A stretch of 64,000 bases of DNA, taken from an uncultured Pseudomonadota bacterium. Its GTDB lineage: Bacteria > Pseudomonadota > Gammaproteobacteria > CAJXQU01. This document shows, piece by piece, positions 15,269-37,616 of the stretch. Each line of letters begins with the position of its first letter. Within the stretch, counting starts at the first letter, position 1. A model generated the notes under the pieces. It saw only the letters and a list, made by a program, of their open reading frames with translations, was not told the DNA's origin and made no database searches. The translations under genes and the position numbers were made by a program. The stretch covers positions 434,001 through 498,000 of the forward strand of contig CAJXQU010000001.1 of the NCBI GenBank assembly GCA_913058255.1, given 5' to 3'.

Positions 15269-16009
15269 TTAGATTTTCATGTCGTACCTTTTCTTCTTCC
15301 AGCGCTGAATGTACCTGAAGAGACTTTTCGGGGCACCGGCTGTATCTGGATATACTTTCAGTTGGACGCAGAACAGATCATATGCAGAAGCTTCAGAGAG
15401 GGTATCAACGGTAAAATCTTCATACATATAAGCCAGTAAAAACTGAAGTTGGGAGTGTTGATCAAACTTGGTAGTCTTCCCTGTTAGAGCCCTAGAAAGA
15501 CGAGAAAAGAAAACTTCATCAGTAGTTTGTTCTGCAATAATGATCCTTTGAGCCAATGGTGGGTATGTAATTAGGCTCTTATCTAGACGAATAGCCTTCA
15601 TAAATTTATCATCATCTGATTGTGCAAGTGAGATTAAAACGTTTAGGCGTTGGCCAAAAAGCCTTAGGCAATCAACTTGTTTATTGATTGTATTATTGAG
15701 CATGGACAGAGTCGCTATGTTAGGTTCTTGATTGTCCATAAATGTTTCAAACTCTTCATATGAGTCAAAGTCTTTGTCCTCGAACTGATAGAGTTTTGAC
15801 ATAAGATTTATGACTGCATCGTGAGTAAGCTGATAAGTATCATGCCAGTCAGAGCCATCACAAACGATATTTTTGAGTGACTCTTCGGAGAGTTTTTTAT
15901 TTCGAGTATCGATATCGGCTCTTGTCTGAAGTTGCTCTTGAAAGTCTGACAGAACAATCCTAAGCTCCTCTACGTTGATTCGTCCAAGTTTCTCATTAGA
16001 AATGGTCAT
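15269..16009 (-). CDS. Unknown helical protein, partner of DUF2235 hydrolase
   Basis: A 246-residue soluble protein of no recognised family. It is predicted mostly helical by eye, with no signal peptide, membrane helix or metal motif. It has an acidic central region (FEDKDFDSYEEFETFMDNQE) and a basic end (RYIQRWKKKRYDMKI). Its ATG overlaps the TGA of the hydrolase gene (ATGA at 16006-16009) and it has no strong ribosome site of its own. Translation should therefore be coupled, at a fixed ratio to the hydrolase. The terminator 40 nt after its stop ends the unit. An inhibitor, adaptor or immunity role for the hydrolase is a reasonable guess from context only. Confidence 0.8.
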   Translation of the reverse strand: MTISNEKLGRINVEELRIVLSDFQEQLQTRADIDTRNKKLSEESLKNIVCDGSDWHDTYQLTHDAVINLMSKLYQFEDKDFDSYEEFETFMDNQEPNIATLSMLNNTINKQVDCLRLFGQRLNVLISLAQSDDDKFMKAIRLDKSLITYPPLAQRIIIAEQTTDEVFFSRLSRALTGKTTKFDQHSQLQFLLAYMYEDFTVDTLSEASAYDLFCVQLKVYPDTAGAPKSLFRYIQRWKKKRYDMKI

Positions 16010-17454
16010 GATTTCTGATAAAAGTTTTCTAGCTTGGGATCATATTTCAACGACTCTGGCCTATAAAGAGTAGATCGACCATGCTTAATTATAGAAGGGA
16101 GAACCAGCCGCTCATGGACTGTTGGGTGATACGGGGCACCGCTAGCATCGTACCTGAACTTTTCTGGCCATGTGTAACGAAGGAAGTTTGGAAACCAGTT
16201 AGGATATACATCTCGAAGGCTTTCTACCTCACAATGTTGCATAGCATCAGCTGAGGGGAAAAGGTTCAACATGCTCTCATTGACAATAAGAGGGTGGGGG
16301 AGGCTTCGTGCTTCTGAGAGCATCCATTCTAGAGTGATATCGGATAGTCTTGATTCATTCTCAGGATAGCTACCTCCAATATCAGAGTGGTTTCCTGCAA
16401 ACCATAACTGAACTAGCCCTGTGGGTTCCCCCTCAGATCTTGAATAGTCTGAACCTTTAAAACCCCACTGGACTCTTGAAAAGTCTTTCCGGGTTTCATC
16501 AATAGCTAAAGCATGCCGAGCATACCTCACACGAGTATCAAGTCCACGGTCGTAGTTTTTCATTTTCCACTTAGCAAAATGAAACCTAAAACTATTCTTT
16601 TCCGGATAGTTACTTATGATTTTGAAAGAAGACTTGAGTGCAACCCGAAACATTGCTGCAATAATCATTAGGCTGACTAAAACAACAGTACTCCAAAAGT
16701 CCCACTCAAAGAATGAAGCAAGAATTTTTGCTAATGAAGTAGTAATTACAACTAGAGTAATAATAGCCATTATGGCCATTCCAAGCCTACGTAAACCTCT
16801 TGCACCAAGAGAAGCGACTGTATCGAAGACTCCTATAAAGTAAGGTGATGCATTAGCATGATCAAACTCTGGTGTTTGTTCATTATTAATTCCTGAGTGA
16901 TACTTTTCTCGAAACCGCCTTGCTTTTTCTTCTCGCTCTTCTTCAAATATCTGTCTATCCCTTCCGGCACCATGTTCATAGACTTTTCGGACAGCTTCAT
17001 CAGCAATTTTTCTAGTCTCGCTAGTGAACAGAGGCAATACTTCTCCCTGACCATTTTCGGTGGGTACACCACATAAACTTAGAACTCTAGCAACGCATCG
17101 TACCGTATAAGCCCCTCGACTAAATCCAAATAAGAAGATACGGTCACCGGGCTCATAGTGGTTAAGGATAGCTTCATAACAATCGGTAATATTTGTCGTA
17201 ATTCCTCGTCCAGTGATGGAACCTAGGTATTTATCAAAAGACTTTTTTATTTTTATATATATATTGCCTGTTGAAGTCTCATCTGTGCCAAGACCTGCGT
17301 CATAAAATGCAATTTGTTCCTTAGGATCTATGATGTTATCCGGTGCGACACGTGAAGCTCTAAAAAGTTTGTAGATATTGCTTAAGCGTTGATCGGGGCG
17401 AAGCCCTCCTGCCTGACCAGTGCCATCTGAAAAAATTAATATGTTCTTACTCAT
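16006..17454 (-). CDS. DUF2235 alpha/beta-hydrolase with inserted membrane helices
   Basis: A 482-residue protein of the DUF2235 (T6SS Tle1-like) hydrolase family. The N-terminus NILIFSDGTGQ is the family opening. Ser112 lies in the nucleophile elbow GFSRGAYT, Asp211 in VFDTVASLG and His356 in FAGNHSDIGGSYPE, so the catalytic triad looks complete. Between Asp211 and His356 are two hydrophobic helices (about 225-248 and 253-271), which would hold the enzyme at the membrane. Related Tle1 enzymes are phospholipases A. No VgrG, PAAR or secretion signal is nearby, so it probably acts inside its own cell. A 15-nt palindrome lies 37 nt upstream of the ATG. Confidence 0.88.
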   Translation of the reverse strand: MSKNILIFSDGTGQAGGLRPDQRLSNIYKLFRASRVAPDNIIDPKEQIAFYDAGLGTDETSTGNIYIKIKKSFDKYLGSITGRGITTNITDCYEAILNHYEPGDRIFLFGFSRGAYTVRCVARVLSLCGVPTENGQGEVLPLFTSETRKIADEAVRKVYEHGAGRDRQIFEEEREEKARRFREKYHSGINNEQTPEFDHANASPYFIGVFDTVASLGARGLRRLGMAIMAIITLVVITTSLAKILASFFEWDFWSTVVLVSLMIIAAMFRVALKSSFKIISNYPEKNSFRFHFAKWKMKNYDRGLDTRVRYARHALAIDETRKDFSRVQWGFKGSDYSRSEGEPTGLVQLWFAGNHSDIGGSYPENESRLSDITLEWMLSEARSLPHPLIVNESMLNLFPSADAMQHCEVESLRDVYPNWFPNFLRYTWPEKFRYDASGAPYHPTVHERLVLPSIIKHGRSTLYRPESLKYDPKLENFYQKS

Positions 17455-26669: not shown

Positions 26670-26915
26670 GTGTTTGGAGTCGTTCGTTTAATCATTTTGG
26701 GTCTCTTAATCAGCTTTGCTCTGAAACTATTTAAAAAGTTTCAAGAAAACCGTTTAACGAGGACCCAAAAAAAATCAAAAAATAATAATAAACCCACTGC
26801 GAAAAAAACGGTTCGTTGTGATCATTGTGGCATTTATGTACCGAGTGATGAAACCATTAATGACGGTGGGAAAAACTTTTGTAGTCTAGAACATCAGTCG
26901 GAGCATCGTAAGTGA
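26670..26915 (+). CDS. PP0621-family small membrane protein
   Basis: About 81 residues from a GTG at 26670, preceded by GGAAAGGGG; the open frame extends to 26601 but without a better ribosome site. One N-terminal membrane helix (VVRLIILGLLISFALKLF), a Lys/Asn-rich linker, and a zinc-ribbon-like C-terminus (CDHCGIYVPSDET, then FCSLEHQSEH). PP0621-type proteins of this form are common beside pilS in Pseudomonas and relatives; function unknown. It overlaps pilS by 4 nt. Confidence 0.75.
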   Translation: MFGVVRLIILGLLISFALKLFKKFQENRLTRTQKKSKNNNKPTAKKTVRCDHCGIYVPSDETINDGGKNFCSLEHQSEHRK

Positions 26916-28516
26916 GAGAACATTTTGAGAGTAGTTCTCAAGTTTTAACGGCATGGAAAGCATTAAAACTTTTTAGTTTCTACCGAGTTGTTCTTGCTGG
27001 ATTCCTGTGGGTACTTATTTTATCAGAAAACTTGCCCGATCCTTTTGGAAAATATAATCCAGACTTCTTCTCGATAGGGGTCATTTGTTATCTAGTTATC
27101 TCGATTGTTTTATTGTTTCTAGTTAAATATCAGCGCCCTGTATTTGGACGACAGGTCTATATCCAAATTCTTGCCGACTTCATTATTTTTGGCATGTTGA
27201 TGTACGCCAGTGGTGGTGTTGGTAGTGGTATTGGCTTACTTCTGGTGATGAGTGTTGCTGCAGGCAGCTTATTGTTAGTTGGGCGAATAGCCTACTTGTT
27301 TGCCGCCATCGGTGCATTAGTTCTTTTGTTAGTGGAGCTGATGATCCTGAATAGTGCTGAAGGTCACGTGACGAATTTTACCCAAGCCGGATTATTAGGA
27401 GGTGTTCTGTTTGCAACGGCTTCTTTGTCGCATGTATTAGCAGGACGGATCAGAGAGAGTGAAGCGCTAGCAGCAAAGCGTGGGCAAGATTTAGAAAGCC
27501 TTTCACGAATGAACGCAAGAATCGTTCAGCGCATGCGCTCGGGGTTATTGGTGTTGGACAGCAAAGGTACTGTGTATCTCGCCAATGTTGCAGCCACCAG
27601 TTTTTTAGGCATAGCGGGGAAAATTGAAGGGATTTCTTTAGTAAAAATTGCCCCCGAACTACATAAGCTCTTGAAGCTGTGGCTACAAGGGCAAAAAACG
27701 ACGAGCTTGTTAAGCTCTCGAACGGGTTTAACCGACGTTCAAGTGTCTTTTACTTTTTTAGGAGTAGGTAAAGCATCCGATATTTTAGTCTTTATGGAAG
27801 ACGCAGCGACGATGCGGCAAAAAGCTCAGCACTTAAAGTTAGCATCATTGGGGCAATTGACAGCTAGTATTGCTCATGAAATTCGTAATCCACTAGGGGC
27901 GATCAGTCATGCGGGCCAATTGCTTTCAGAATCACCGCAATTAGAAGGAGCGGATCTACGTCTATTACAGATTATTAATGACCATTCTTCACGGGTGAAC
28001 AAGATCATTGAGAATATCTTGAAGCTAGGTCGTAGAGATGACTCCATACCTGAAAGCTTCTTGATTCGTCCATGGTTGGAGACATTTATTACAGAGTTCA
28101 GAATTCAGCATAGTATCTCGTCAGGGGAGGTTATTTTTTCTATAGAGCCCGAGAATGTTCGAGTGACGATGGATCAAAGTCAATTACACCAAATAGTGAC
28201 TAACTTATGTGAAAATGCGCTGCGTTATAGCTCGGGGCTACCCAAGATTGAAATACGTTGTGCGGTGAATGATGAATCCGAACGTCCTTACCTTGAAGTT
28301 ATCGATTCTGGCTCAGGGATTCCTGACGATCAGGTGGACCAAATTTTTGAACCTTTTTTTACCGATCATAGTGCAGGAACAGGTCTTGGCCTTTATATTG
28401 CTAGTGAATTATGTGAAGCAAACCAGGCACTTTTAGCCTTACATAAAAACACGCAAAAGGGATGTTGCTTTCGAATTACGTTCGCACATCCTAATAAGCA
28501 AATTCATATTGATTGA
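26912..28516 (+). CDS. pilS: Type IV pilus sensor histidine kinase PilS
   Basis: 534 residues with six hydrophobic helices in the first 180, a PAS-like domain (about 200-300; RMRSGLLVLDSKGTVYLANV), then HisKA (LTASIAHEIRNPLGAISHAG) and HATPase (NLCENALRYS, DSGSGIPDD, GTGLGLYIASELCE). PilS senses pilin levels in the membrane and phosphorylates PilR. The start overlaps the preceding gene by 4 nt and pilR follows after 6 nt. Confidence 0.93.
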   Translation: MREHFESSSQVLTAWKALKLFSFYRVVLAGFLWVLILSENLPDPFGKYNPDFFSIGVICYLVISIVLLFLVKYQRPVFGRQVYIQILADFIIFGMLMYASGGVGSGIGLLLVMSVAAGSLLLVGRIAYLFAAIGALVLLLVELMILNSAEGHVTNFTQAGLLGGVLFATASLSHVLAGRIRESEALAAKRGQDLESLSRMNARIVQRMRSGLLVLDSKGTVYLANVAATSFLGIAGKIEGISLVKIAPELHKLLKLWLQGQKTTSLLSSRTGLTDVQVSFTFLGVGKASDILVFMEDAATMRQKAQHLKLASLGQLTASIAHEIRNPLGAISHAGQLLSESPQLEGADLRLLQIINDHSSRVNKIIENILKLGRRDDSIPESFLIRPWLETFITEFRIQHSISSGEVIFSIEPENVRVTMDQSQLHQIVTNLCENALRYSSGLPKIEIRCAVNDESERPYLEVIDSGSGIPDDQVDQIFEPFFTDHSAGTGLGLYIASELCEANQALLALHKNTQKGCCFRITFAHPNKQIHID

Positions 28517-28522
28517 TAAAGC

Positions 28523-29839
28523 ATGACCTCAAAAACACTTATCGTTGACGACGAGCCAGATATTCGTGAGCTACTCACCATTACGTTACAACGTATGGAT
28601 ATTCCGAGCAAAGCCGTAGCTGATCTAAGTGAGGCGCGAGCCTTATTAGAGCAGGAAGATTTTGATCTGTGTTTGACCGATATGCGACTACCTGATGGAA
28701 ATGGCCTAGAACTTGTCGAACATATTCAGCAATGTTATCCAGATTTACCCGTCGCCGTAATTACGGCACATGGCAGTATGGAAACTGCGATCGATGCACT
28801 GAAAACTGGCGCTTTTGATTTTGTGACCAAACCGGTCGATCTAGAAAGTCTGAGGAATCTCGTTGCCAACGCCCTTAAATTAGCGGCGAAGCGATCACAA
28901 ACAGGTCACGCTATTATTGGCGAATCTGATCTGATCATTAAGTTACGTAAAACGATTAAAAAGCTCGCTCGTAGCCAAGCACCTATTTATATAAGTGGAG
29001 AGTCTGGAACGGGTAAAGAGCTGGTTGCGAGAATGATCCATGAACAAGGGGCACGTTCCGATCATTCTTTTGTTCCGGTGAACTGCGGCGCGATCCCCGC
29101 GGAACTAATGGAAAGTGAATTCTTTGGACATAAAAAAGGCAGTTTCACCGGAGCGAATACCGACAAACAAGGATTGTTCCAAGTGGCCAATGGTGGAACA
29201 CTGTTCTTAGATGAGGTCGCAGAACTACCATTAGTGATGCAGGTCAAGTTATTACGCGCTATTCAAGAGAAGGCCGTTCGTCCCGTGGGTGGTCATAAAG
29301 AAGAATCAGTCGATATTAGAGTGCTCAGCGCAACGCATAAAGATTTGGCGAAAATGGTTGCGGATGGCGAATTTCGTCAAGATTTGTTCTATCGAATAAA
29401 TGTCATCGAACTAAAAGTTCCTCCTTTAAATGAACGAGGCGATGACGTCTTACTCTTAGCTGAACATATTCTTTCTGATCTCTCTGTCACGATAGGAGAA
29501 ACATTAAGTCTATCTATGACAGCGAAGCAGGCTCTTAAAAAATACGCCTTCCCAGGTAATGTCCGCGAGCTAGAAAATATTCTAGAGCGCGCCATGACGC
29601 TTTGCGATGGAGAGGTTATTGAAGCAGATGATCTGCACCTTCCAGAGGATACGGGCTCAGCTGTTCCAACAGGTTTAGAAGGGAGCATGTACCTAGAGCC
29701 TTATCTAGATTCCATCGAACGCGAAAGAATCGTTGCTGCATTAGAACAAACCCGCTGGAACAAAACGGCTGCGGCGAAAGTATTGGGGATTAGTTTTCGA
29801 GCATTACGCTATCGTTTAGAGAAGCTAGGGCTAGATTAA
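28523..29839 (+). CDS. pilR: Sigma-54 activator PilR
   Basis: 438 residues: receiver (VDDEPDIREL, Asp in CLTDMRLPDGNG, TKPV), AAA+ sigma-54 domain (GESGTGKELVARMIH, GTLFLDEVAELPL, FPGNVRELENILERAM) and a Fis-type HTH (TRWNKTAAAKVLGISFRALR). The sigma-54 contact loop reads GSFTGAN, a small variant of GAFTGA. It should activate the -24/-12 promoter of pilA that lies 180 nt downstream. Confidence 0.95.
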   Translation: MTSKTLIVDDEPDIRELLTITLQRMDIPSKAVADLSEARALLEQEDFDLCLTDMRLPDGNGLELVEHIQQCYPDLPVAVITAHGSMETAIDALKTGAFDFVTKPVDLESLRNLVANALKLAAKRSQTGHAIIGESDLIIKLRKTIKKLARSQAPIYISGESGTGKELVARMIHEQGARSDHSFVPVNCGAIPAELMESEFFGHKKGSFTGANTDKQGLFQVANGGTLFLDEVAELPLVMQVKLLRAIQEKAVRPVGGHKEESVDIRVLSATHKDLAKMVADGEFRQDLFYRINVIELKVPPLNERGDDVLLLAEHILSDLSVTIGETLSLSMTAKQALKKYAFPGNVRELENILERAMTLCDGEVIEADDLHLPEDTGSAVPTGLEGSMYLEPYLDSIERERIVAALEQTRWNKTAAAKVLGISFRALRYRLEKLGLD

Positions 29840-30232: not shown

Positions 30233-30658
30233 ATGAAAAAGGTACAACAAGGTTTTACACTAATCGAATTAATGATCGTAGTTGCAATCATTGGTATTCT
30301 TGCTGCAGTTGCGATTCCTGCTTATCAAGATTACACAAAACGTGCACATGTTACTGAAGGAATGGGACTTGCAGGAGCTGCTAAAGTAGGTGTTGCTGAA
30401 TACTACTCTAGTGAAGGGATTCTTCCGGGTTCAAATTCGATTGCAGGCCTTACTTCTGCATCCAATATTACTGGTAATGCGGTAACTAGTGTTGGTGTTG
30501 GTGCAAGTGGCGTGATTACAGTTACGTATAACACTAAAGTAGATACTGGTAAAATTATGAAACTTACTCCAGATGCTTCTAGTGGTGGTTCTATTGAATG
30601 GGATTGTGCAACAGGAAGTACTGTTGCTGCTAAGTACCGACCTAGTCGATGTCGTTAA
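30233..30658 (+). CDS. pilA: Type IV major pilin PilA
   Basis: A 141-residue prepilin. MKKVQQG is the short leader cut by PilD before Phe1. The mature N-terminus [20 protein letters not shown] has the conserved Glu5 and the hydrophobic assembly helix. Two C-terminal cysteines (WDCATGS and PSRCR) would close the D-region disulfide loop. The rest of the globular domain is short and rich in Gly, Ser, Thr and Ala, a type often glycosylated. Sigma-54 controlled, with its own terminator. Confidence 0.95.
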
Positions 30659-30690
30659 GCCTTTAGTTTAATTATTTTTAGGTTTAAAAA

Positions 30691-30716
30691 AAGCCCCTCA
30701 AGAGAGGGGCTTTTTT
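30691..30716 (+). terminator. Rho-independent terminator after pilA
   Basis: AGCCCCTC, loop AAGA, GAGGGGCT and six T. Ends the pilA transcript before the glycosyltransferase genes. Confidence 0.93.
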
Positions 30717-30828
30717 GATCTATGCCGTAATAAAATTAAATATATCTTTAGTTTGAAAGGTTTAAGTTTTTATATTAACTCAAATTTTGAATATAGTTTA
30801 TGAATTCATATAAATGTTAGGGGGAGGC

Positions 30829-32727
30829 ATGGTGCTTACCAAAAGCTGGAAGCTAATAGTGTTAGTCATGTCAGCTTTTATTATTTATCTGCCAGGATTG
30901 CCTGGAGGGTTTCTTTTCGATGACTTCTGGAATATTCTGGATAACCCTCTAATTACATCAAAAGGATTTAGTCTTGAGGGAGCTTGGGGGGCATTTAAGT
31001 CTGGCGAGTCAGGACCTTTAGGACGTCCTTTAGCGATGCTAAGCTTTTACCTCAACTACCAAATCTCAGGCGTATCTCCTTTGGGGTTTAAATTAGTCAA
31101 TATTACTATCCATGCATTGAATAGTGTATTGGTTTTTTTGATCGTTCAGCGTTTTTATATGGGGTTAAGCGGGCCTTATAAATCAGGCATAAGTGATAAG
31201 TTTCAATGGCTAGCTTTTTTTGTAGCTCTTCTTTGGGCTGTTCATCCGATCAATCTCACAACGACTCTTTATGCCGTTCAGCGAATGAATGGGCTTTCAG
31301 CTTTGTTCATTTTGATGGGCATTTTATTTTATCTGAAGTTAAGGCAGTCAGAATCTCTTAGTAATACCCGCTTTATTTTTGGACTGTTAGGCGTGGCTCT
31401 ATGCGGTTTACTCGCTGTATTGTCTAAAGAAAATGGGGTGTTATTATTTTTGTACCTTTTTGTTATTGAGTGCATGATTTTTAATTGGCGAACAAGCTCA
31501 ATAGTCAGGAAGCGTTTATTGGTCAGCTGTTATGTCCTTGTATTACTACTGCCGATCATGGTGGTTTTACTATTTTTTAGTGACCGTCTCTTTGATGGAT
31601 ATGAGGTAAGGCCGTATAGCCCTGTTGAGCGTCTTTTAACCCAGGCGAGAGTTATTTGGTTTTATATTTACCAGATCTTTTTACCTCAGGCCGGATCTTT
31701 TGGGCTTCATCATGATGATTTTCGGATCTCGCATGGTTTATTTACCCCCATAAGTACTTTTCTATCAATAGCAGGGCTTGTGATTTTGTTTTTTGGAACA
31801 GTTTGTTTAAGAAAAATAAGCCCCCTATTTTCGTTTGGCATTATCTGGTTCTTTTGTGGACATGCCATGGAGTCGACTGTATTGGCTTTGGATATGGTGT
31901 ATGAGCACAGAAATTATCTGCCAGCAATAGGGCTTGTTATGATCATAGCAGGCGTCATTGAAAAACTTTTTGATAAAGGCTATGTCCTTAGCTCAAAATT
32001 TGTGTGTATAGCGCTGGTAATGTTATTTGCTCTAATAACGGCACAGAGAGCTTATGATTGGCGAGACCCCATAATTTTGGCTGAACGAACAGCTCAGCAA
32101 CACCCTAACTCAGTGAAGTCACAGTATGCTGTTGGGTATAATTACATGAAGTTATTTCAGTTAACAGGTGAACAGCAGTACGTAGATAAGAGTGTTGAAG
32201 CTTTAAAGAAAACTATGGCAGTGAGTAAATCGGAGAGCTTACCTTTTCTTGCAATGGTTTATACGTCGGTATTAAATAACATTGAGGTAGATGATAGCTT
32301 ATTACAGGAGGTATACTTGCGCTTGAAGACTTACCCTGTAGGGCAACCAGAACTAAATACAATTACAGAGATGGCAAAGTGTCATCTGAAAGAAAAATGT
32401 CCCTTATCAGAAGATGTTCTTCTTAACATATTCGGTTCTTTATTTGCTAATAAATACCTTACGGATAAAAGGAAAGATTCGATGCTTGAGAGTTATGGCG
32501 TTTACCTCTACTCGATACCAAAAAAGCAAATTGAAGCCGTCAATGTGTTGAGAGGTGTTGCTAGTCGTAATCCAGACATTTTACAATACCGTATAAACTT
32601 GGTTGAAGTTTTGATGGATTCAGCTGAAGTTTTAATGGCTTCAGGTCAGGTGTCAGAAGCAAATTTATTGATGAGAGAGTTGAAAGAAAAATTTGGTATT
32701 GGGGGCTCGAAAAACCTTAAACAATAA
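30829..32727 (+). CDS. GT-C-type membrane glycosyltransferase with TPR-like tail
   Basis: About 632 residues from the ATG at 30829 (AGGGGG upstream); an ATG at 30814 lies inside that ribosome site. Ten or so membrane helices occupy residues 5-415. The first periplasmic loop has the acidic pair in GGFLFDDFWNILDNPLI and GPLGRPLAMLSFYLN, as in TMTC/PMT-type lipid-linked sugar transferases. The C-terminal 200 residues are soluble and TPR-like (QHPNSVKSQYAVGYNYMKLF). Placed directly after pilA, it may glycosylate pilin from a polyprenyl-phosphate sugar; this is inferred from position and fold. Confidence 0.7.
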   Translation: MVLTKSWKLIVLVMSAFIIYLPGLPGGFLFDDFWNILDNPLITSKGFSLEGAWGAFKSGESGPLGRPLAMLSFYLNYQISGVSPLGFKLVNITIHALNSVLVFLIVQRFYMGLSGPYKSGISDKFQWLAFFVALLWAVHPINLTTTLYAVQRMNGLSALFILMGILFYLKLRQSESLSNTRFIFGLLGVALCGLLAVLSKENGVLLFLYLFVIECMIFNWRTSSIVRKRLLVSCYVLVLLLPIMVVLLFFSDRLFDGYEVRPYSPVERLLTQARVIWFYIYQIFLPQAGSFGLHHDDFRISHGLFTPISTFLSIAGLVILFFGTVCLRKISPLFSFGIIWFFCGHAMESTVLALDMVYEHRNYLPAIGLVMIIAGVIEKLFDKGYVLSSKFVCIALVMLFALITAQRAYDWRDPIILAERTAQQHPNSVKSQYAVGYNYMKLFQLTGEQQYVDKSVEALKKTMAVSKSESLPFLAMVYTSVLNNIEVDDSLLQEVYLRLKTYPVGQPELNTITEMAKCHLKEKCPLSEDVLLNIFGSLFANKYLTDKRKDSMLESYGVYLYSIPKKQIEAVNVLRGVASRNPDILQYRINLVEVLMDSAEVLMASGQVSEANLLMRELKEKFGIGGSKNLKQ

Positions 32728-32761
32728 TGCACATTTGGGATAGGGAAGTAATTAAGAGACA

Positions 32762-33649
32762 ATGAATCATAATGAACAGTTAAGTATCATCATGCCAGCA
32801 AAGAATGAAGCTGAGGGTCTAGCATTATTTTTGCCTAAACTAACAAGCTTATATCCTAATGCTGAAATAATCGTTGTTAATGACGGCTCAACAGATAAGA
32901 CTGAATCGGTCTGTATCGAAAATGGCGTTAAAGTAGTGTGCCATACATACTCATTGGGAAATGGCGCAGCAATTAAATCAGGAGCGCGTGAAGCCTCGGG
33001 TGATATTTTGGTCTTTATGGATGCGGATGGTCAGCATAAGGTTGAGGATATTGCCGCCCTGTTGGAAAAAATGGAAGAGGGTCATGATATGGTCGTCGGA
33101 GCTAGGAGTTCTGTTACTCAGGCTTCAGTTGCACGCCGTTTTGCAAACTTTTTTTATAACCGTTTAGCTTCGATTATGACGGGGCATAAGATTGAAGATC
33201 TTACATCAGGTTTCCGTGCTGCAAGAGCTCGTCACTTTCGTAAATTTTTATATTTACTACCGAATGGTTTTTCATATCCAACTACGAGCACAATGGCATT
33301 CTTTAGATCTGGGTTAACCGTCGCCTATGTTCCTATTGAAGCGGGGAAAAGAGCAGGTAAAAGCCATATTAAAATCTTTAGGGATGGTTTTCGTTTCTTC
33401 GTGATTATATTAAAGGTTGGCGCCTTGTTTTCTCCCATGCGTTTCTTCTTACCTATTAGTGCATCTATATTTTTGACTGGGCTTTTTTACTATAGCTACA
33501 CTTTCTTCACGATGGGTCGTTTTACCAACATGAGTGCAGTACTCTTTATATCAGCACTGTTAGTATTTTTAATGGGTATTTTGTCAGAGCAAATCTCTTC
33601 TCTTCATTATAAGGATATTGAAGGCTCTCAGCGAAGGGCCAAAAGATAA
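32762..33649 (+). CDS. Polyprenyl-phosphate glycosyltransferase, GT2 family
   Basis: 295 residues. The GT-A domain (LSIIMPAKNEAEGLALFLPK, IIVVNDGSTDKT, GNGAAIKSGAREASGD, FMDADGQHK with the DxD motif) resembles dolichol-phosphate mannose synthases. Two C-terminal membrane helices (about 220-245 and 255-280) follow. It could make the lipid-linked sugar used by the GT-C enzyme encoded 34 nt upstream; both are on the same strand. Confidence 0.85.
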   Translation: MNHNEQLSIIMPAKNEAEGLALFLPKLTSLYPNAEIIVVNDGSTDKTESVCIENGVKVVCHTYSLGNGAAIKSGAREASGDILVFMDADGQHKVEDIAALLEKMEEGHDMVVGARSSVTQASVARRFANFFYNRLASIMTGHKIEDLTSGFRAARARHFRKFLYLLPNGFSYPTTSTMAFFRSGLTVAYVPIEAGKRAGKSHIKIFRDGFRFFVIILKVGALFSPMRFFLPISASIFLTGLFYYSYTFFTMGRFTNMSAVLFISALLVFLMGILSEQISSLHYKDIEGSQRRAKR

Positions 33650-33772
33650 GAGTAAATTTATAAACTTGTCTCTGAGTGAATAACGTTCTCTTATATGCAA
33701 GGGGCTTGTAAGGTTGCAGCTATAAACAACGAGTGCAGACTAGAATGGTTATTAAAGAGTGTGAATTTTTTT

Positions 33773-34960
33773 TTATGTATGTTTCTTTGAAAAAACTTCT
33801 GAAGTAAATAAGGTTAAATACTTCCTAAATACTTTATTATTAGCAAGATTTTCTTTGTAATAGAGCGCAGATTTTTTAGCATAAAACTCTCGAATATCTG
33901 CGGAAGAAGCAAGTTTTTTAATCATATTTACTAGAGCATCTGAATTATCGGCAGGTATTGATACATATGGAAGATCTTTATTTTTTTCATAGTTTGGTAA
34001 GCAGCTGGTTTCTTGTGAAATGATAGCTCGGCCGACTCGCATACTTAAGTAGTTTTTAAATGGCCACACTCTTGAGGCCTTAGCAGTTTTTCCGAAGATG
34101 CCGAGGCAGATATCCGCATTGGCAATTAATTCATTGATGACTTTGGGTGATTGCCAGTCTACCAGCCATGTGACGTTTGACTTGCTTTGAGAAAGTATGT
34201 TTTTAACCTTCTCTGAAGTTTGGCCATGACCGATTAGAGTGAAGTGTATTTTGGGGTTTTTAGCTAATTTAATTGCGGCCTCTGCAATAACCTCAACACC
34301 TTGCAAGGGAACAAATGTTCCAATAAAAAACACTTCAATAGTACTATCTTTTTTCTTTGAGTAAGAGGTAGGGAGGTAATTTTTCTCATCAGTCATAAGT
34401 GGAAAAGGAATTATCTTCTCGTTACTAATTCCTAATAGATTAGAAAGGTAGAGTGCTGAACTCTCAGTATCAACAATTATTTTTTTCGTACTATGTAAAG
34501 ATCTTTTTTCAAACCAAAGCAGTAATTTTGCTAAGACATTATTGGCCTTAAGTAATTGTCTATCAAGAACAATAGAGTCATAAAGTGAAATAAAACAGTC
34601 CATGAAGGTAGGAGGTCTTAATGGTTTCGGGACAAAAGAAAGTATGAATAAGGAAATGTGAGCAGGGTAAGGAGCATAAACAAGGTCAATTTTGTTTTTA
34701 TTATAAAGATAGAGGCAAGTAAATAAACTAACTATAGACTTGTAAGCTAGATAAGTTAAGATCAAAATTAAATCAAATTTCGATTTTCTACTTTGATTTA
34801 ATAGACCTGACTTTTCTTTTTTTACGTTATTAAATTGGCCGAATATAATTTCAACCTCAGGGGAAAGTTCCATGCTTTCTAAGAGCCATTTAACATTTGG
34901 ATAGCCATCGGAAGTTGAATAAGCTCCCATCAAACCAATCTTTAAAGTGTGCTTAAGCAT
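33773..34960 (-). CDS. GT4-like glycosyltransferase
   Basis: A 395-residue GT-B enzyme. The N-terminal domain has a Rossmann start (LKIGLMGAYSTSDGYPNVKW). The C-terminal donor-binding domain has VFFIGTFVPLQGVEVIAEAA, HFTLIGHGQTSEKV and a late region around ADICLGIFGKTAKASRVWPF. Acceptor and sugar are unknown. It starts within the last 8 nt of the flippase-like gene, in an operon with it and the methyltransferase. Confidence 0.8.
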   Translation of the reverse strand: MLKHTLKIGLMGAYSTSDGYPNVKWLLESMELSPEVEIIFGQFNNVKKEKSGLLNQSRKSKFDLILILTYLAYKSIVSLFTCLYLYNKNKIDLVYAPYPAHISLFILSFVPKPLRPPTFMDCFISLYDSIVLDRQLLKANNVLAKLLLWFEKRSLHSTKKIIVDTESSALYLSNLLGISNEKIIPFPLMTDEKNYLPTSYSKKKDSTIEVFFIGTFVPLQGVEVIAEAAIKLAKNPKIHFTLIGHGQTSEKVKNILSQSKSNVTWLVDWQSPKVINELIANADICLGIFGKTAKASRVWPFKNYLSMRVGRAIISQETSCLPNYEKNKDLPYVSIPADNSDALVNMIKKLASSADIREFYAKKSALYYKENLANNKVFRKYLTLFTSEVFSKKHT

Positions 34961-35864
34961 TCCCCCCCCATACTTTCATCAATGTAAGAGAAAGTAAAAT
35001 ACTCAGAATCTCAGCCAGAAGTATCAAGAGCCTAGGCAATAAAACGATACTAACAGCAACTTCTCCATCAACTCCCTGAGTATTTAAGTAGGCAATTATG
35101 GCTCCTTCCCTAATTCCTAAACCACTGGGTACAAATATAGCGATAAATCCTAAAAAAGTTGCAAGCATTACAATACCAATAAGATTTATTAAGTCAGGAT
35201 TACTAGTGTAAACATAAGCAGAGTAGTAATAGCCTACAGCATAGAGAAGCATTGAGATTAAGTGAAGAGCAAAGATATTGTAGTGCTGGAGTTTGGATAA
35301 ATATTGAATTTTATGTTTGTTAAACAGGCTGAAAAAAAAATTTATGAGCTGAATAAGTATTCGAGGGAAGGCTAGGCTAATCACGAGTATTAGTGTTAAT
35401 ACCGAAGCCCAGTTTTCTAATGAAAAATTTGTTACGTCAGTGAAGGTGGAAGGGCGATACCAGAAAACGATAACGATAATTAGCAAGCAAGACAAAATTG
35501 CTATGCTTTGCTCAAGGTATAATGTGGATAACACTCTTTTCGCATCCCCACCTTTTTTAACAACGGCTAGAAACCGGCCGGCTATATGCCAAACTCCTCC
35601 TGGCAAGTACCGAGATAGTAATGAAATAAAATGGATCACGGCACTTTCTTTTTTCGAAATATTGATATCGTAATAATTAAGCGAAGTGGCCCATGCAAGA
35701 TAAATAATCAATCCATGACTAAAGAAAAAGAGAAAGCTTATGAATGCATTTCCCCAATGAGCATTTTTTTGAGTATTGAATAGCTGATCAAAGGATTGAA
35801 TCTGAGTACTTACAACAAGGATTAAAATAATGACACCGATAAAAAGTGAGATTATGCGTCGCAA
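34953..35864 (-). CDS. Flippase-like membrane protein (LPG synthase TM family)
   Basis: 303 residues with about eight hydrophobic helices and no soluble domain. Features of the UPF0104/lysylphosphatidylglycerol synthase membrane family are visible: LLSRYLPGGVWHIAGRFLAV and FVPSGLGIREGAIIAYL. Such proteins accompany glycan synthesis genes. The gene lies 2 nt after the methyltransferase and overlaps the glycosyltransferase. Confidence 0.75.
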   Translation of the reverse strand: MRRIISLFIGVIILILVVSTQIQSFDQLFNTQKNAHWGNAFISFLFFFSHGLIIYLAWATSLNYYDINISKKESAVIHFISLLSRYLPGGVWHIAGRFLAVVKKGGDAKRVLSTLYLEQSIAILSCLLIIVIVFWYRPSTFTDVTNFSLENWASVLTLILVISLAFPRILIQLINFFFSLFNKHKIQYLSKLQHYNIFALHLISMLLYAVGYYYSAYVYTSNPDLINLIGIVMLATFLGFIAIFVPSGLGIREGAIIAYLNTQGVDGEVAVSIVLLPRLLILLAEILSILLSLTLMKVWGGNA

Positions 35865-35866
35865 TG

Positions 35867-36580
35867 TTATGGCTCGTTTACCAGTCTACTTTTCTTACAG
35901 CGGTGTAAATATTGAAAAGTAAAAAAAGGCCGGAAAGGCCAAAAGTCGAGTAATTTCCCAGGGATGTTTGTCCAAGAGAGACTTTCTATGAGACGAACGT
36001 TACGAGATTCTTTTTCTATATCTAATCCTTCTTTTTCTAAAAGGTTTACTATATTTTTTTTAGTGAAAAATTGTAAATGAGTACTATCGTGTATGCCTCT
36101 GCTATTTTGAGGCCAGCGACCCATTATGTATAAGCTGACGAAGGTAGAGTAGTGCCTTATGTTAGGAAGGCTAGTAATTACATGTCCATTTTGTGAAAGA
36201 TGAGATTTGAGTTGATTTAATATTTTTTCAGGGAAAATCAGGTGCTCAAGGATGTCAGCTAAAATGATTAAGTCAAAATCTTTGTCAAGCAGGTTGTTTG
36301 TTAGATCCTCAAGACTGTTGAGGTTTAGTTGAATTACTTGGTCGCAATATTCTGATGCTTTTATAGCTAACTCAGGATCGGCTTCTAGTCCTGTAACCTT
36401 ACAATTTGGATATCGGCTCTTAATCTCCTTTGCTAAAAGGCCTGCACCACAACCGACATCTAATATTTTGGAGGGCTGTGTATTAATAAGCTTAATGATG
36501 TCCGGTCGAAATCCACTATAGCCTTGAATAAAGTCAGATAGGTCTTTTTGTGGACGTAAATTATTTATAAATTTCATCAT
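35867..36580 (-). CDS. SAM-dependent class I methyltransferase
   Basis: 237 residues. The SAM-binding motif ILDVGCGAGLLAKEI and the acidic loop VTGLEADPE are clear, followed by FDLIILADILEHL and GHVITSLPNIRHYSTF, a form common in polysaccharide clusters. The first gene of a three-gene minus-strand operon. Substrate unknown, probably a glycan or lipid intermediate. Confidence 0.85.
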   Translation of the reverse strand: MMKFINNLRPQKDLSDFIQGYSGFRPDIIKLINTQPSKILDVGCGAGLLAKEIKSRYPNCKVTGLEADPELAIKASEYCDQVIQLNLNSLEDLTNNLLDKDFDLIILADILEHLIFPEKILNQLKSHLSQNGHVITSLPNIRHYSTFVSLYIMGRWPQNSRGIHDSTHLQFFTKKNIVNLLEKEGLDIEKESRNVRLIESLSWTNIPGKLLDFWPFRPFFTFQYLHRCKKSRLVNEP

Positions 36581-36815: not shown

Positions 36816-37616
36816 TCAAGCTTTATGAAGTCTCTGAATCATCTCTTTAAACACCTTCGGGTTCCCTGCAACTACACTACCTTTTTTCATGTGTTCACTG
36901 CCTCCATCCATGTCACCGACGATTCCACCAGCTTCTTGGAGCAATAAAACGCCTGCGGCCATGTCCCAAGGTTGGAGGTGCATTTCCCAGAACCCATCTA
37001 AACGACCGGCTGCGACGTAAGCGAGGTCAAGCGCGGCTGAACCAGCTCTACGAATTCCTGCGGTGTCTTTAAACATGACTTTGAAAGTTTCTAGGTAGGC
37101 ATCGAGCTGATCGTGATTTCTGATCGGAAAACCAGTGCCGACGAGCGCGCCATTTAGGCCGATACGTTTTCCGACGCGAATTCTGCGGTTGTCTAAGAAA
37201 GCTCCGCGACCACGTGATGCGGTAAATAGCTCAGATCGAACCGGATCATAAATAACCGCTTGATCAAGAATTCCCTTGTGTTTCAAAGCGATAGAAACGC
37301 AGTATTGTGGATATGTGTGTAGAAAGTTTGTGGTGCCATCGAGCGGATCGATAATCCACTGATATTCAGGATTACTATTCTCTGGATTTATTTCTCCAGC
37401 TTCTTCGGCAAGAAATGTGTGATCTGGGAAAGCATCGCTAATGATGCCAATAATGATTGATTCTGCCAGCTTATCAGCTTCGGTAACAAAGTCGTTGTGA
37501 CCTTTGGTCGTAATCTCCAGATCAGCAACTTGATCTTGGCTACGGTAAATAGTATCGCCTGCTTTGCGGGCAGCGCGAACGGCGATGGTTAACATCGGAT
37601 GCATGGCAAATCTCAC
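36816..37616 (-). CDS. suhB: Inositol-1-monophosphatase SuhB
   Basis: 266 residues. The metal and substrate motifs of the family are intact: FLAEEAGE, WIIDPLDGTTNFLHTYPQY and QPWDMAAGVLLLQEAGG. SuhB dephosphorylates inositol phosphate and also assists rRNA antitermination in E. coli. The frame begins with MRFAMHPML; the second Met (MHPMLTIAVRAAR, residue 5) matches the usual SuhB start. It is divergent from trmJ, as in many gammaproteobacteria. Confidence 0.93.
   Translation of the reverse strand: MRFAMHPMLTIAVRAARKAGDTIYRSQDQVADLEITTKGHNDFVTEADKLAESIIIGIISDAFPDHTFLAEEAGEINPENSNPEYQWIIDPLDGTTNFLHTYPQYCVSIALKHKGILDQAVIYDPVRSELFTASRGRGAFLDNRRIRVGKRIGLNGALVGTGFPIRNHDQLDAYLETFKVMFKDTAGIRRAGSAALDLAYVAAGRLDGFWEMHLQPWDMAAGVLLLQEAGGIVGDMDGGSEHMKKGSVVAGNPKVFKEMIQRLHKA

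Follow-up and report, generated by a model that had tools for sequence, protein, structure and literature searches.

The window, by which we mean the whole 64,000-nucleotide stretch that was analysed, holds five genes between the terminator of pilA and suhB. Genes for a GT-C membrane glycosyltransferase and a GT2 synthase on the + strand converge on an operon of GT4, flippase-like and methyltransferase genes on the - strand. The features of the locus are:

26912..28516, + strand: pilS (flank), sensor kinase in the pair that regulates pilA; open reading frame, with a syntenic pilS in congener G002
28523..29839, + strand: pilR, NtrC-type regulator (flank); open reading frame, with relatives upstream of pilA in 24 of 80 loci
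30233..30658, + strand: pilA, major type IV pilin and proposed acceptor; PF00114 (E 3.7e-23), N_methyl (1.3e-10)
30687..30716, + strand: intrinsic terminator of pilA; perfect 13-pair stem, 4-base loop, T-rich 3' arm, -20.9 kcal/mol
30814..32727, + strand: GT-C membrane glycosyltransferase with C-terminal TPR domain, proposed pilin O-glycosyltransferase; AF2 model, fold matches, invariant residues
32762..33649, + strand: GT2 polyprenyl-phosphate-sugar synthase of DPMS/GtrB type; PF00535 (1.3e-29), PDB relatives
33773..34960, - strand: GT4-type glycosyltransferase, proposed to elongate the glycan in the cytoplasm; PF00534 (9.1e-7)
34953..35864, - strand: MprF-flippase-domain-like membrane protein (LPG_synthase_TM), proposed lipid-linked-sugar flippase; PF03706 (1e-17), model
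35867..36580, - strand: SAM-dependent methyltransferase (Methyltransf_23), proposed to O-methylate the sugar; PF13489 (1.5e-19)
36816..37616, - strand: suhB-type inositol monophosphatase, right border; PF00459 (6.5e-70)

Open reading frames and Pfam matches place all genes where an earlier note on this DNA had put them. That note began the GT-C gene at 30829; its start is ambiguous, there being one in-frame ATG at 30814, a second at 30829 and a GTG at 30832. The sensor kinase is presumably PilS, its name being assigned from the order pilS-pilR-pilA. The terminator of pilA was recognised by visual inspection and from its fold, and promoter and terminator scans gave scores no better than those of shuffled sequence.

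In congener G002 (locus L032) a pilR 80% identical to that of the window lies beside the syntenic pilS, and the suhB counterpart, identified by eye, follows pilA directly, so that the site is empty and the five window genes are an accessory island. GT-C and GT2 were found in neither of the two congeners searched, and the family-level and order-level searches covered three genomes each. The G+C content, taken over 2-kb intervals, is 0.36-0.39 between 30 and 37 kb, with 0.42 (28-30 kb) and 0.46 (37-39 kb) in the flanks. A second stretch of low G+C content (0.38-0.40) lies at 17-23 kb. No convincing repeats were seen at the island borders, and a plasmid search gave no match.

Linkage of the GT-C gene to pilA in related genomes

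Of 369 sampled genomes, 110 have a relative of the GT-C protein with E no worse than 1e-3, a few of these matches being weak. Of 80 related loci, 70 have a pilA homologue on the same strand upstream of the GT-C gene and none has one downstream, and in 46 it is within 700 bp; a pilin motif check agrees (71/80). Marinobacter mobilis (L085), for example, has pilA, GT-C and GT2, and Methylomonas fluvii (L084) is a further case of the arrangement. Three comparison genes in the locus counts were NAD synthase and two succinyl-CoA ligase subunits. Four loci with 8 kb of upstream sequence (L082, L086, L090 and L108) have no pilin by either test. As pilR is found in only 24 loci, it is pilA, and not just the pilRS cluster, to which GT-C is linked. 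Tandem GT-C copies are frequent behind pilin genes. The median pairwise identity is about 33% for GT-C, 31% for the pilin head and 62% for GT2, and the distances of GT-C and pilin correlate when that of GT2 is partialled out (partial Mantel r 0.235, permutation p 2e-4, n = 36). Divergent GT-C and pilin together with a stable GT2 would be expected if GT-C follows its pilin and GT2 goes on making the same donor.

The pilin was described in the earlier note as rich in Ser and Thr, and these residues do make up 22.6% of it beyond residue 28, versus 14.5% in the pilin of the island-free congener. The Ser+Thr content is 24.0% in GT-C-adjacent pilins (n = 47) and 19.4% in pilins of genomes lacking GT-C (n = 30, p 1e-4), or 19.9% for the latter when averaged per genome (n = 23, p 6e-4), a modest excess between sets drawn from different sources. 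Of 112 genomes searched, 38 lacked GT-C and had a PF00114 match; the control pilins were 30 sequences from 23 of these, and those left out were mostly weaker PF00114 matches. The window pilin ends in Arg and not in Ser or Thr; a C-terminal Ser or Thr is present in 9 of the 47 GT-C-adjacent pilins and 5 of the 30 controls.

The GT-C protein and its partner synthase

The AF2 model of the GT-C protein (pLDDT 93.7, pTM 0.93) predicts 11 transmembrane helices, with the active side probably periplasmic, followed by a helical-repeat tail, the TPR domain, at about residues 419-637. The best PDB fold matches (VIA) were STT3 (Z 19.5; 8agb_A, rmsd 4.5, 321 aligned) and Pmt2 (Z 19.3; 6p25_B, rmsd 4.8, 339 aligned), with PglB at Z 16.9 and ArnT at Z 16.5 (5f15, rmsd 4.5, 318 aligned); the first TPR-only match came at Z 10.9. 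Foldseek alone gave no match to the model with E <0.001. At the level of the superfamily the modelled fold is thus that of STT3/PMT/ArnT. Eight residues, D36, D37, R71, P72, R157, K205, E206 and R366, are identical in all 74 aligned GT-C sequences, and H300 (72/74), D301 (72/74), D302 (70/74) and Y368 (71/74) are nearly so; the model would place the acidic D36 D37 motif in the first extracytoplasmic loop.

Sequence searches with the window protein gave nothing in Pfam and NCBIfam at E 1e-3 and only chance-level Pfam matches up to E 10, and phmmer against the PDB returned only two TPR-type matches (E 2.5 and 2.6). TPR_19 is matched by 48 of the 74 aligned sequences, which include the window protein, itself without a match; its TPR tail is too diverged for Pfam and is recognised in the model only. 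When the PDB was searched with a profile of the family, the best 60 matches listed showed TPR and other helical-repeat proteins, since the TPR part far outscores the GT-C part. The PMT (GT39) domain PF02366 is not matched by the window protein up to E 10 and is matched by 1 of the 74 sequences (best E 2.6e-6). Neither DUF1736 (PF08409) nor the O-antigen-ligase domain (IPR007016, which we take to be Pfam PF04932) is matched by the window protein up to E 10 or appears among the 25 of 31 families listed for the 74 sequences. An O-antigen-ligase (WaaL) structure does not appear among the best 50 fold matches listed, which is not evidence of absence. By Pfam's DUF1736 the protein is not a TMTC; the GT-C fold, the TMTC-type motifs and the lack of a detected O-antigen-ligase domain nevertheless bear out the view that it resembles TMTC more than PilO/TfpO.

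The GT2 protein is, by homology, a polyprenyl-phosphate-sugar synthase, with PfDPMS (1.1e-14), GtrB sll0501 (1.2e-14, residues 4-281) and ArnC (4e-14) as PDB relatives. Class searches used thresholds of E 1e-3 for GT-C and the flippase, 1e-40 for GT2, and 1e-10 for GT4 and the methyltransferase. GT-C is present in 88 of the 90 genomes carrying GT2, phylogeny not being factored out, and G146 is one of the two without it; conversely, 14 of 102 GT-C genomes lack GT2 at E 1e-40. The latter count and the Fisher odds ratio for co-occurrence (~740) assume that the set of 339 genomes is G000-G338. GT2 lies directly downstream of GT-C in at least 64 of the 90 genomes. Such adjacency counts are lower bounds, because 105 of 150 GT-C places were entered, those omitted being mostly further copies and genomes without GT2. 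At the level of loci, GT2 is found in 50 of 80 (56-70% identity); 7 of the 30 loci lacking it end within 300 bp of GT-C. The association of GT-C with pilin and with GT2, noticed earlier at this one locus, therefore holds class-wide, and these linkage counts argue that the arrangement is not due to chance.

The convergent operon

The model of the flippase-like protein (pLDDT 77.7) matches the MprF flippase domain with Z 18.8-22.2, the next match being at 6.1, so that the protein has the MprF flippase-domain fold and a possible role in transport. Nine of the 13 flippase matches other than the window's own (274 genomes) are within 10 kb of GT2, and the best three of seven such GT4 relatives (G024, G166 and G146) are no more than about 2 kb from GT2 or GT-C; in G166 the flippase search reports a frame that greedy ORF picking masks. 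Relatives of the methyltransferase are mostly unlinked, with a copy beside GT2 in 1 of 29 genomes other than the window's own. A search for the PF03706 family was rejected as a linkage test for being too broad, with matches in 180 of 339 genomes, both congeners included.

Profile matches in the 80 GT-C loci lie downstream rather than upstream (methyltransferase 27 vs 0, flippase 8 vs 0, GT4 13 vs 1), these counts including 3 methyltransferase, 4 GT4 and 5 flippase training loci. The flippase count was reproduced with a model not trained on these loci. As the flippase is recognised in only 8 loci, another protein must do the flipping elsewhere. All three profiles match downstream in only 2 of the 80 loci, both of them training loci. 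The methylated glycan suggested in the earlier note is the weaker part of its proposal: the flippase and GT4 linkage and the downstream methyltransferases speak for it, the mostly unlinked methyltransferase relatives against it.

Generic glycan genes also follow GT-C in many loci, namely GT-B transferases (15 and 14 of 80 loci), an epimerase (13), other GT2s (12 and 12), DegT (11) and a polysaccharide transporter (7), and these would suit LPS or EPS equally well. In G146 the GT2, flippase, methyltransferase and GT4 genes stand in one row directly after an STT3-family transferase (PF02516, 7.2e-22), with no pilin motif within 19 kb of the cassette. The same genes tied to lipopolysaccharide, with no pilA nearby, had been named earlier as evidence against a role in pilin modification; the generic genes and the lack of a pilin motif near the G146 cassette go some way in that direction, but that cassette lies behind an STT3-family transferase.

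Proposed pilin glycosylation and comparison with known systems

Our preferred reading, to which we give a probability of roughly 75%, is that the island is a pilin-dedicated three-component system for extracytoplasmic O-glycosylation. Judging from its family, GT2 would load undecaprenyl phosphate at the cytoplasmic face with a hexose-type sugar taken from a nucleotide sugar, and the MprF-domain-like protein, from its fold, may turn the lipid-linked sugar to the periplasmic face. The fold, the invariant catalytic residues and the class-wide pilA linkage suggest that GT-C then transfers the sugar to internal Ser/Thr of the inner-membrane pilin, whose head might be gripped by the periplasmic TPR domain. 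GT4 and the methyltransferase could form a variable cassette by which the glycan is extended and methylated, either ahead of flipping or in the form of another lipid-linked donor. If only one sugar is transferred by GT-C, it is not obvious what acceptor GT4 would use. By analogy with TfpO and TfpW, the benefit may be a shielded or changed pilus surface, for instance against pilus-binding phages.

The GT4/flippase-like/methyltransferase operon may instead be an independent fragment of a surface-polysaccharide locus, only GT-C and GT2 acting on pilin. We hold this possible, if on the doubtful side: the operon is a separate transcription unit on the opposite strand, its three profiles seldom occur together behind GT-C, and methyltransferase relatives are mostly unlinked and PF03706 is common; the nearness of most flippase matches and the best GT4 matches to GT2 or GT-C, and the four genes in a row in G146, point the other way.

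It is unlikely, in our view, that GT-C acts on many periplasmic proteins of which pilin is merely the most abundant. The strong one-sided linkage to pilin, the frequent tandem copies behind pilin genes and the co-variation with pilin argue against such general O-glycosylation, to which the four loci without a nearby pilin would conform, as would PglL-type general enzymes, which, in excerpts of PMC12645811, modify pilin and much else, and whose homologues may nonetheless be encoded near pilin (21 of 31 in the excerpted PMC3643930). Class-wide pilA linkage likewise makes it very improbable that the genes decorate LPS or exopolysaccharide in an ArnT- or Gtr-like manner and lie beside pilA by accident, despite the ArnT fold common to GT-C, the resemblance of GT2 to GtrB and ArnC, and the generic polysaccharide genes downstream in many loci. 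The TPR domain also speaks against this, being to our knowledge unusual for a polysaccharide-decorating enzyme. Finally, TfpY-type accessories occupy the same pilin-accessory slot (PMC11841053, in excerpt), but that GT-C is a non-catalytic pilin-assembly accessory of this kind is hardly credible given catalytic residues identical in all 74 sequences and a linked donor-making GT2.

The core of this gene set is seen again next to pilus genes in many relatives and seems to be a kind of protein glycosylation not yet described; none of the titles and abstract openings listed by searches of open-licence PMC papers described this GT-C family beside pilA. It is tempting to go further and to propose, with evenly balanced confidence, a class of bacterial protein O-glycosyltransferases in many Gamma- and Betaproteobacteria that have the two-domain plan of animal TMTC (GT-C and TPR), are each dedicated to a neighbouring pilin and are fed by one conserved Und-P-sugar synthase, often in tandem copies, maybe for different pilin sites, and with an exchangeable flippase/GT4/methyltransferase cassette changing the pilus surface. 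If so, pilin glycosylation in this class of bacteria would be far commoner than the TfpO, TfpM and PglL cases suggest, and the animal O-mannosyltransferase plan would have a counterpart in bacteria whose acceptor is evident, which would help in learning how a TPR tail picks its substrate. The co-diverging pilin/GT-C pairs would be natural material for studies of acceptor specificity and glycoengineering, and the empty site of G002 allows the island to be studied against a congener that lacks it.

Among known systems, TfpW is encoded beside pilA. According to excerpts of PMC11841053 and PMC11127046 and the title of Kus 2008, TfpW is the pilin accessory of group IV P. aeruginosa, a GT-C enzyme that glycosylates pilin with D-Araf at multiple sites from a polyprenyl-phosphate-linked sugar. 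Compared by description and not by sequence, the island likewise has a GT-C enzyme encoded adjacent to pilin; unlike TfpW, which uses a PRPP-based pentose route, its donor maker is a DPMS/GtrB-type GT2, and its GT-C carries a TPR tail. TfpO/PilO, TfpM, PglL and PglS share the proposed periplasmic transfer to pilin and a gene near the pilin gene (TfpO, TfpM and PglS being encoded near their targets in the excerpted PMC12645811, and PglL homologues in 21 of 31 cases), but their O-antigen-ligase domain was not detected in the island GT-C, and TfpO and TfpM act on a C-terminal Ser/Thr of the pilin, whereas the window pilin ends in Arg.

The animal O-mannosyltransferases TMTC1-4 (GT105), which take mannose from a polyprenyl-phosphate donor, also have a GT-C domain followed by TPRs, and the motifs DD, RP, KE, an acidic EL4 and R..Y in EL5 appear, by eye against Table 4 of PMC7801869 (seen in excerpt, where uncharacterised prokaryotic relatives are noted), in the same order and with similar spacing. 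Unlike in TMTC, M2 keeps only RP and M3 only R, the full SHKSYRP and RxD not being kept, there is no DUF1736 match, and the pilin partner and bacterial operon are new. Three-component systems (GtrA/GtrB/Gtr, Citrobacter undP-pentofuranose and LTA), as excerpts of PMC11127046 and PMC5836110 describe them, combine an Und-P-sugar synthase, a flippase and a GT-C enzyme. The island resembles them in having such a synthase by homology and a GT-C protein, and differs in that the proposed acceptor is pilin and that the candidate flippase is of the MprF-domain type and not SMR (GtrA) or MATE.

The accessory block between pilA and suhB

The earlier note had described a pilA terminator followed by two glycan genes and a converging three-gene operon, and this arrangement is present in the window as claimed. 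Along the window, pilS-pilR-pilA and a strong terminator are followed by two genes on the same strand, then by three genes on the opposite strand and suhB:

30233-30658, plus strand: pilA, major type IV pilin
30814-32727, plus strand: GT-C, membrane glycosyltransferase with a C-terminal TPR domain, proposed pilin O-glycosyltransferase
32762-33649, plus strand: GT2, polyprenyl-phosphate-sugar synthase
33773-34960, minus strand: GT4, glycosyltransferase
34953-35864, minus strand: flippase-like PF03706 membrane protein
35867-36580, minus strand: methyltransferase
36816-37616: suhB

The host genome comprises 2.78 Mb in 33 contigs. In the congener G002, suhB lies 47 bp after pilS-pilR-pilA with no gene in between, and neither of two congeners gave a match to GT-C or, at the search thresholds used, to GT2, the flippase, the methyltransferase or GT4; another PF03706 protein is present in both. 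The five genes therefore form an accessory block, rich in A+T, that separates pilA from suhB. Elsewhere in the window, the protein encoded at 16006-17454 contains a phospholipase catalytic domain resembling that of T6SS Tle1 (PF09994, 3.7e-67).

Linkage of GT-C to pilA and GT2

GT-C relatives were found in 110 of 369 genomes in the class search. Of 593 candidate stretches that a scan led by the alignment picked out in named genomes, 587 were confirmed, hence at least 587 relatives; the best 80, from Gamma- and Betaproteobacteria by their titles, were kept. Of these best 80 loci, 70 have a PilA homologue upstream of GT-C and on its strand, no more than 700 bp away in 46, and none has one downstream; additional tandem GT-C copies separate the two genes in many of the remaining PilA-linked loci. 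Of the ten loci without a PilA match, five have less than 1.5 kb of upstream sequence and L094 has pilin-like genes by motif, while L082, L086, L090 and L108 have no pilin in the 8 kb upstream. The GT-C gene belongs to pilA, and since pilR occurs in only 24 of the best 80 loci, its tie is with the pilin itself, not just with the pilRS cluster.

In 30 of the best 80 loci GT-C is matched more than once, often as tandem copies, e.g. in L041, L060, L080 and L087, which in some loci follow two or three pilin genes; such copies may serve different pilins or different sites. In G166 (L174:6454-9401) the genes on both sides of GT-C are short and carry a prepilin N-methylation motif, and in L090 two further large proteins follow GT-C, the first of which matches PMT_2 weakly, below the cut-off.

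GT2 is the partner of GT-C. It was found in 90 of 339 genomes at E 1e-40, 88 of which have GT-C, and in at least 64 of the 90 it lies at most 1.2 kb downstream of GT-C on the same strand. Only G146 and G199 have GT2 without GT-C. In G146 (L173:7751-9919) GT-C's place directly before GT2 is taken by a protein that carries an STT3 oligosaccharyltransferase domain (PF02516, 7.2e-22) and gives no match to the GT-C profile; flippase, methyltransferase and GT4 come after GT2. The STT3-family neighbour suits a GT2 donor destined for protein glycosylation, but the 19 kb read around this row yielded no pilin motif.

The closest PDB relatives of GT2 are dolichol-phosphate-mannose synthase, GtrB and ArnC, and its motif M86 D87 x D89 G90 Q91 H92 is near-invariant in the aligned sequences. 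In 36 loci that contain GT-C, GT2 and pilin, pairs of GT2 sequences share a median identity of 62%, pairs of GT-C sequences 33% and pairs of pilin heads 31%; the distances of GT-C and of pilin remain correlated after removal of the GT2 distance (r 0.235, p 2e-4). This conservation of GT2, together with the correlated divergence of the other two, points to one common donor used by pilin-specific transferases.

The proposed transferase and its proposed acceptor

The structure search proposed in the earlier note places the GT-C model (pLDDT 93.7) with STT3, PMT, AglB, PglB and ArnT, with Z scores of about 16-19.5; the first TPR-only match, at Z 10.9, is well under these. The donor- and metal-binding residues that Eisenhaber et al. 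(PMC7801869) assign to TMTCs, animal O-mannosyltransferases, have counterparts in the same order in the window GT-C: D36D37, R71P72, R157, K205E206, H300D301D302 and E364HRNY. D36, D37, R71, P72, R157, K205, E206 and R366 are identical in 74 of 74 aligned GT-C sequences. Neither DUF1736 nor an O-antigen-ligase domain was matched by the window GT-C, and both are absent among the family matches shown for the 74 sequences; we therefore file GT-C under neither TMTC nor TfpO/PglL, the latter known pilin O-oligosaccharyltransferases. The likeness to TMTC over PilO/TfpO noted earlier is borne out by the motif counterparts and the missing O-antigen-ligase match, and from motifs and model GT-C is predicted to work like a TMTC-type transferase. 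Within the TPR part, a CX5C pair (residues 523 and 529, kept in 56 and 58 of 74) suggests a disulphide in a periplasmic TPR domain and would fit the oxidising periplasm.

Beyond residue 28, Ser+Thr content is 24.0% in GT-C-adjacent pilins (n=47) vs 19.4% in those from genomes that lack GT-C (n=30; p 1e-4), or 19.9% when controls are averaged per genome (n=23; p 6e-4); the excess is mostly from Ser, and Asp+Glu is lower. A C-terminal glycosylation site as used by TfpO/TfpM is unlikely judging from the sequences, since the window pilin ends in Arg and only 9 of 47 GT-C-adjacent pilins, against 5 of 30 controls, have Ser or Thr as their last residue. Internal sites are expected. The pilin is the proposed acceptor of GT-C, and any role against phages is a proposal too.

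Neighbouring glycan genes and known systems

The PF03706 protein model (pLDDT 77.7, built from 9 sequences) matches the MprF flippase domain at Z 18.8-22.2, the following match reaching only Z 6.1. A search of 274 genomes at E 1e-3 gave 13 non-own relatives of this protein, all weak (20-38 bits), and 9 lie within 10 kb of GT2. For GT4, 7 non-own relatives reach E 1e-10, and the top three, in G024, G166 and G146, are no more than about 2 kb away from GT2 or GT-C. All three operon genes occur together in G146, L045 and L093, and spread out in G024. In the best 80 of at least 587 loci, with similar amounts of DNA scanned downstream and upstream of GT-C (502 and 547 kb), the methyltransferase model matched downstream in 27 loci vs none upstream, the flippase model in 8 vs none and the GT4 model in 13 vs one. 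Counting against linkage, the methyltransferase's nearest class relatives are mostly unlinked, beside GT2 in only 1 of 29 non-own genomes. Also downstream in these best 80 are two groups of GT-B transferases (15 and 14 loci), two other GT2 groups (12 loci each), epimerase (13), DegT (11) and polysaccharide transporter (7) genes. Such genes may diversify a pilin glycan or may serve LPS or EPS. For the system as a whole, gene content, linkage, co-occurrence, motif conservation and the empty site in G002 are observed and the folds are modelled; enzyme activities, sugar identity, flipping and methylation are predictions.

Searches of the open-licence literature listed no description of a system of this type, though one may exist in subscription papers or preprints. 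PglL homologues are pilin-adjacent in 21 of 31 cases, and this adjacency accompanies a pilin-modifying enzyme tested by experiment in A. baylyi (PMC3643930). For O antigens and teichoic acids, three-component Und-P-sugar systems have been described (PMC11127046, PMC5836110), and TfpW of P. aeruginosa is a GT-C pilin arabinosyltransferase (PMC11841053). The system in the window combines these ideas, with a different donor synthase, its TPR-tailed GT-C and its MprF-type flippase.
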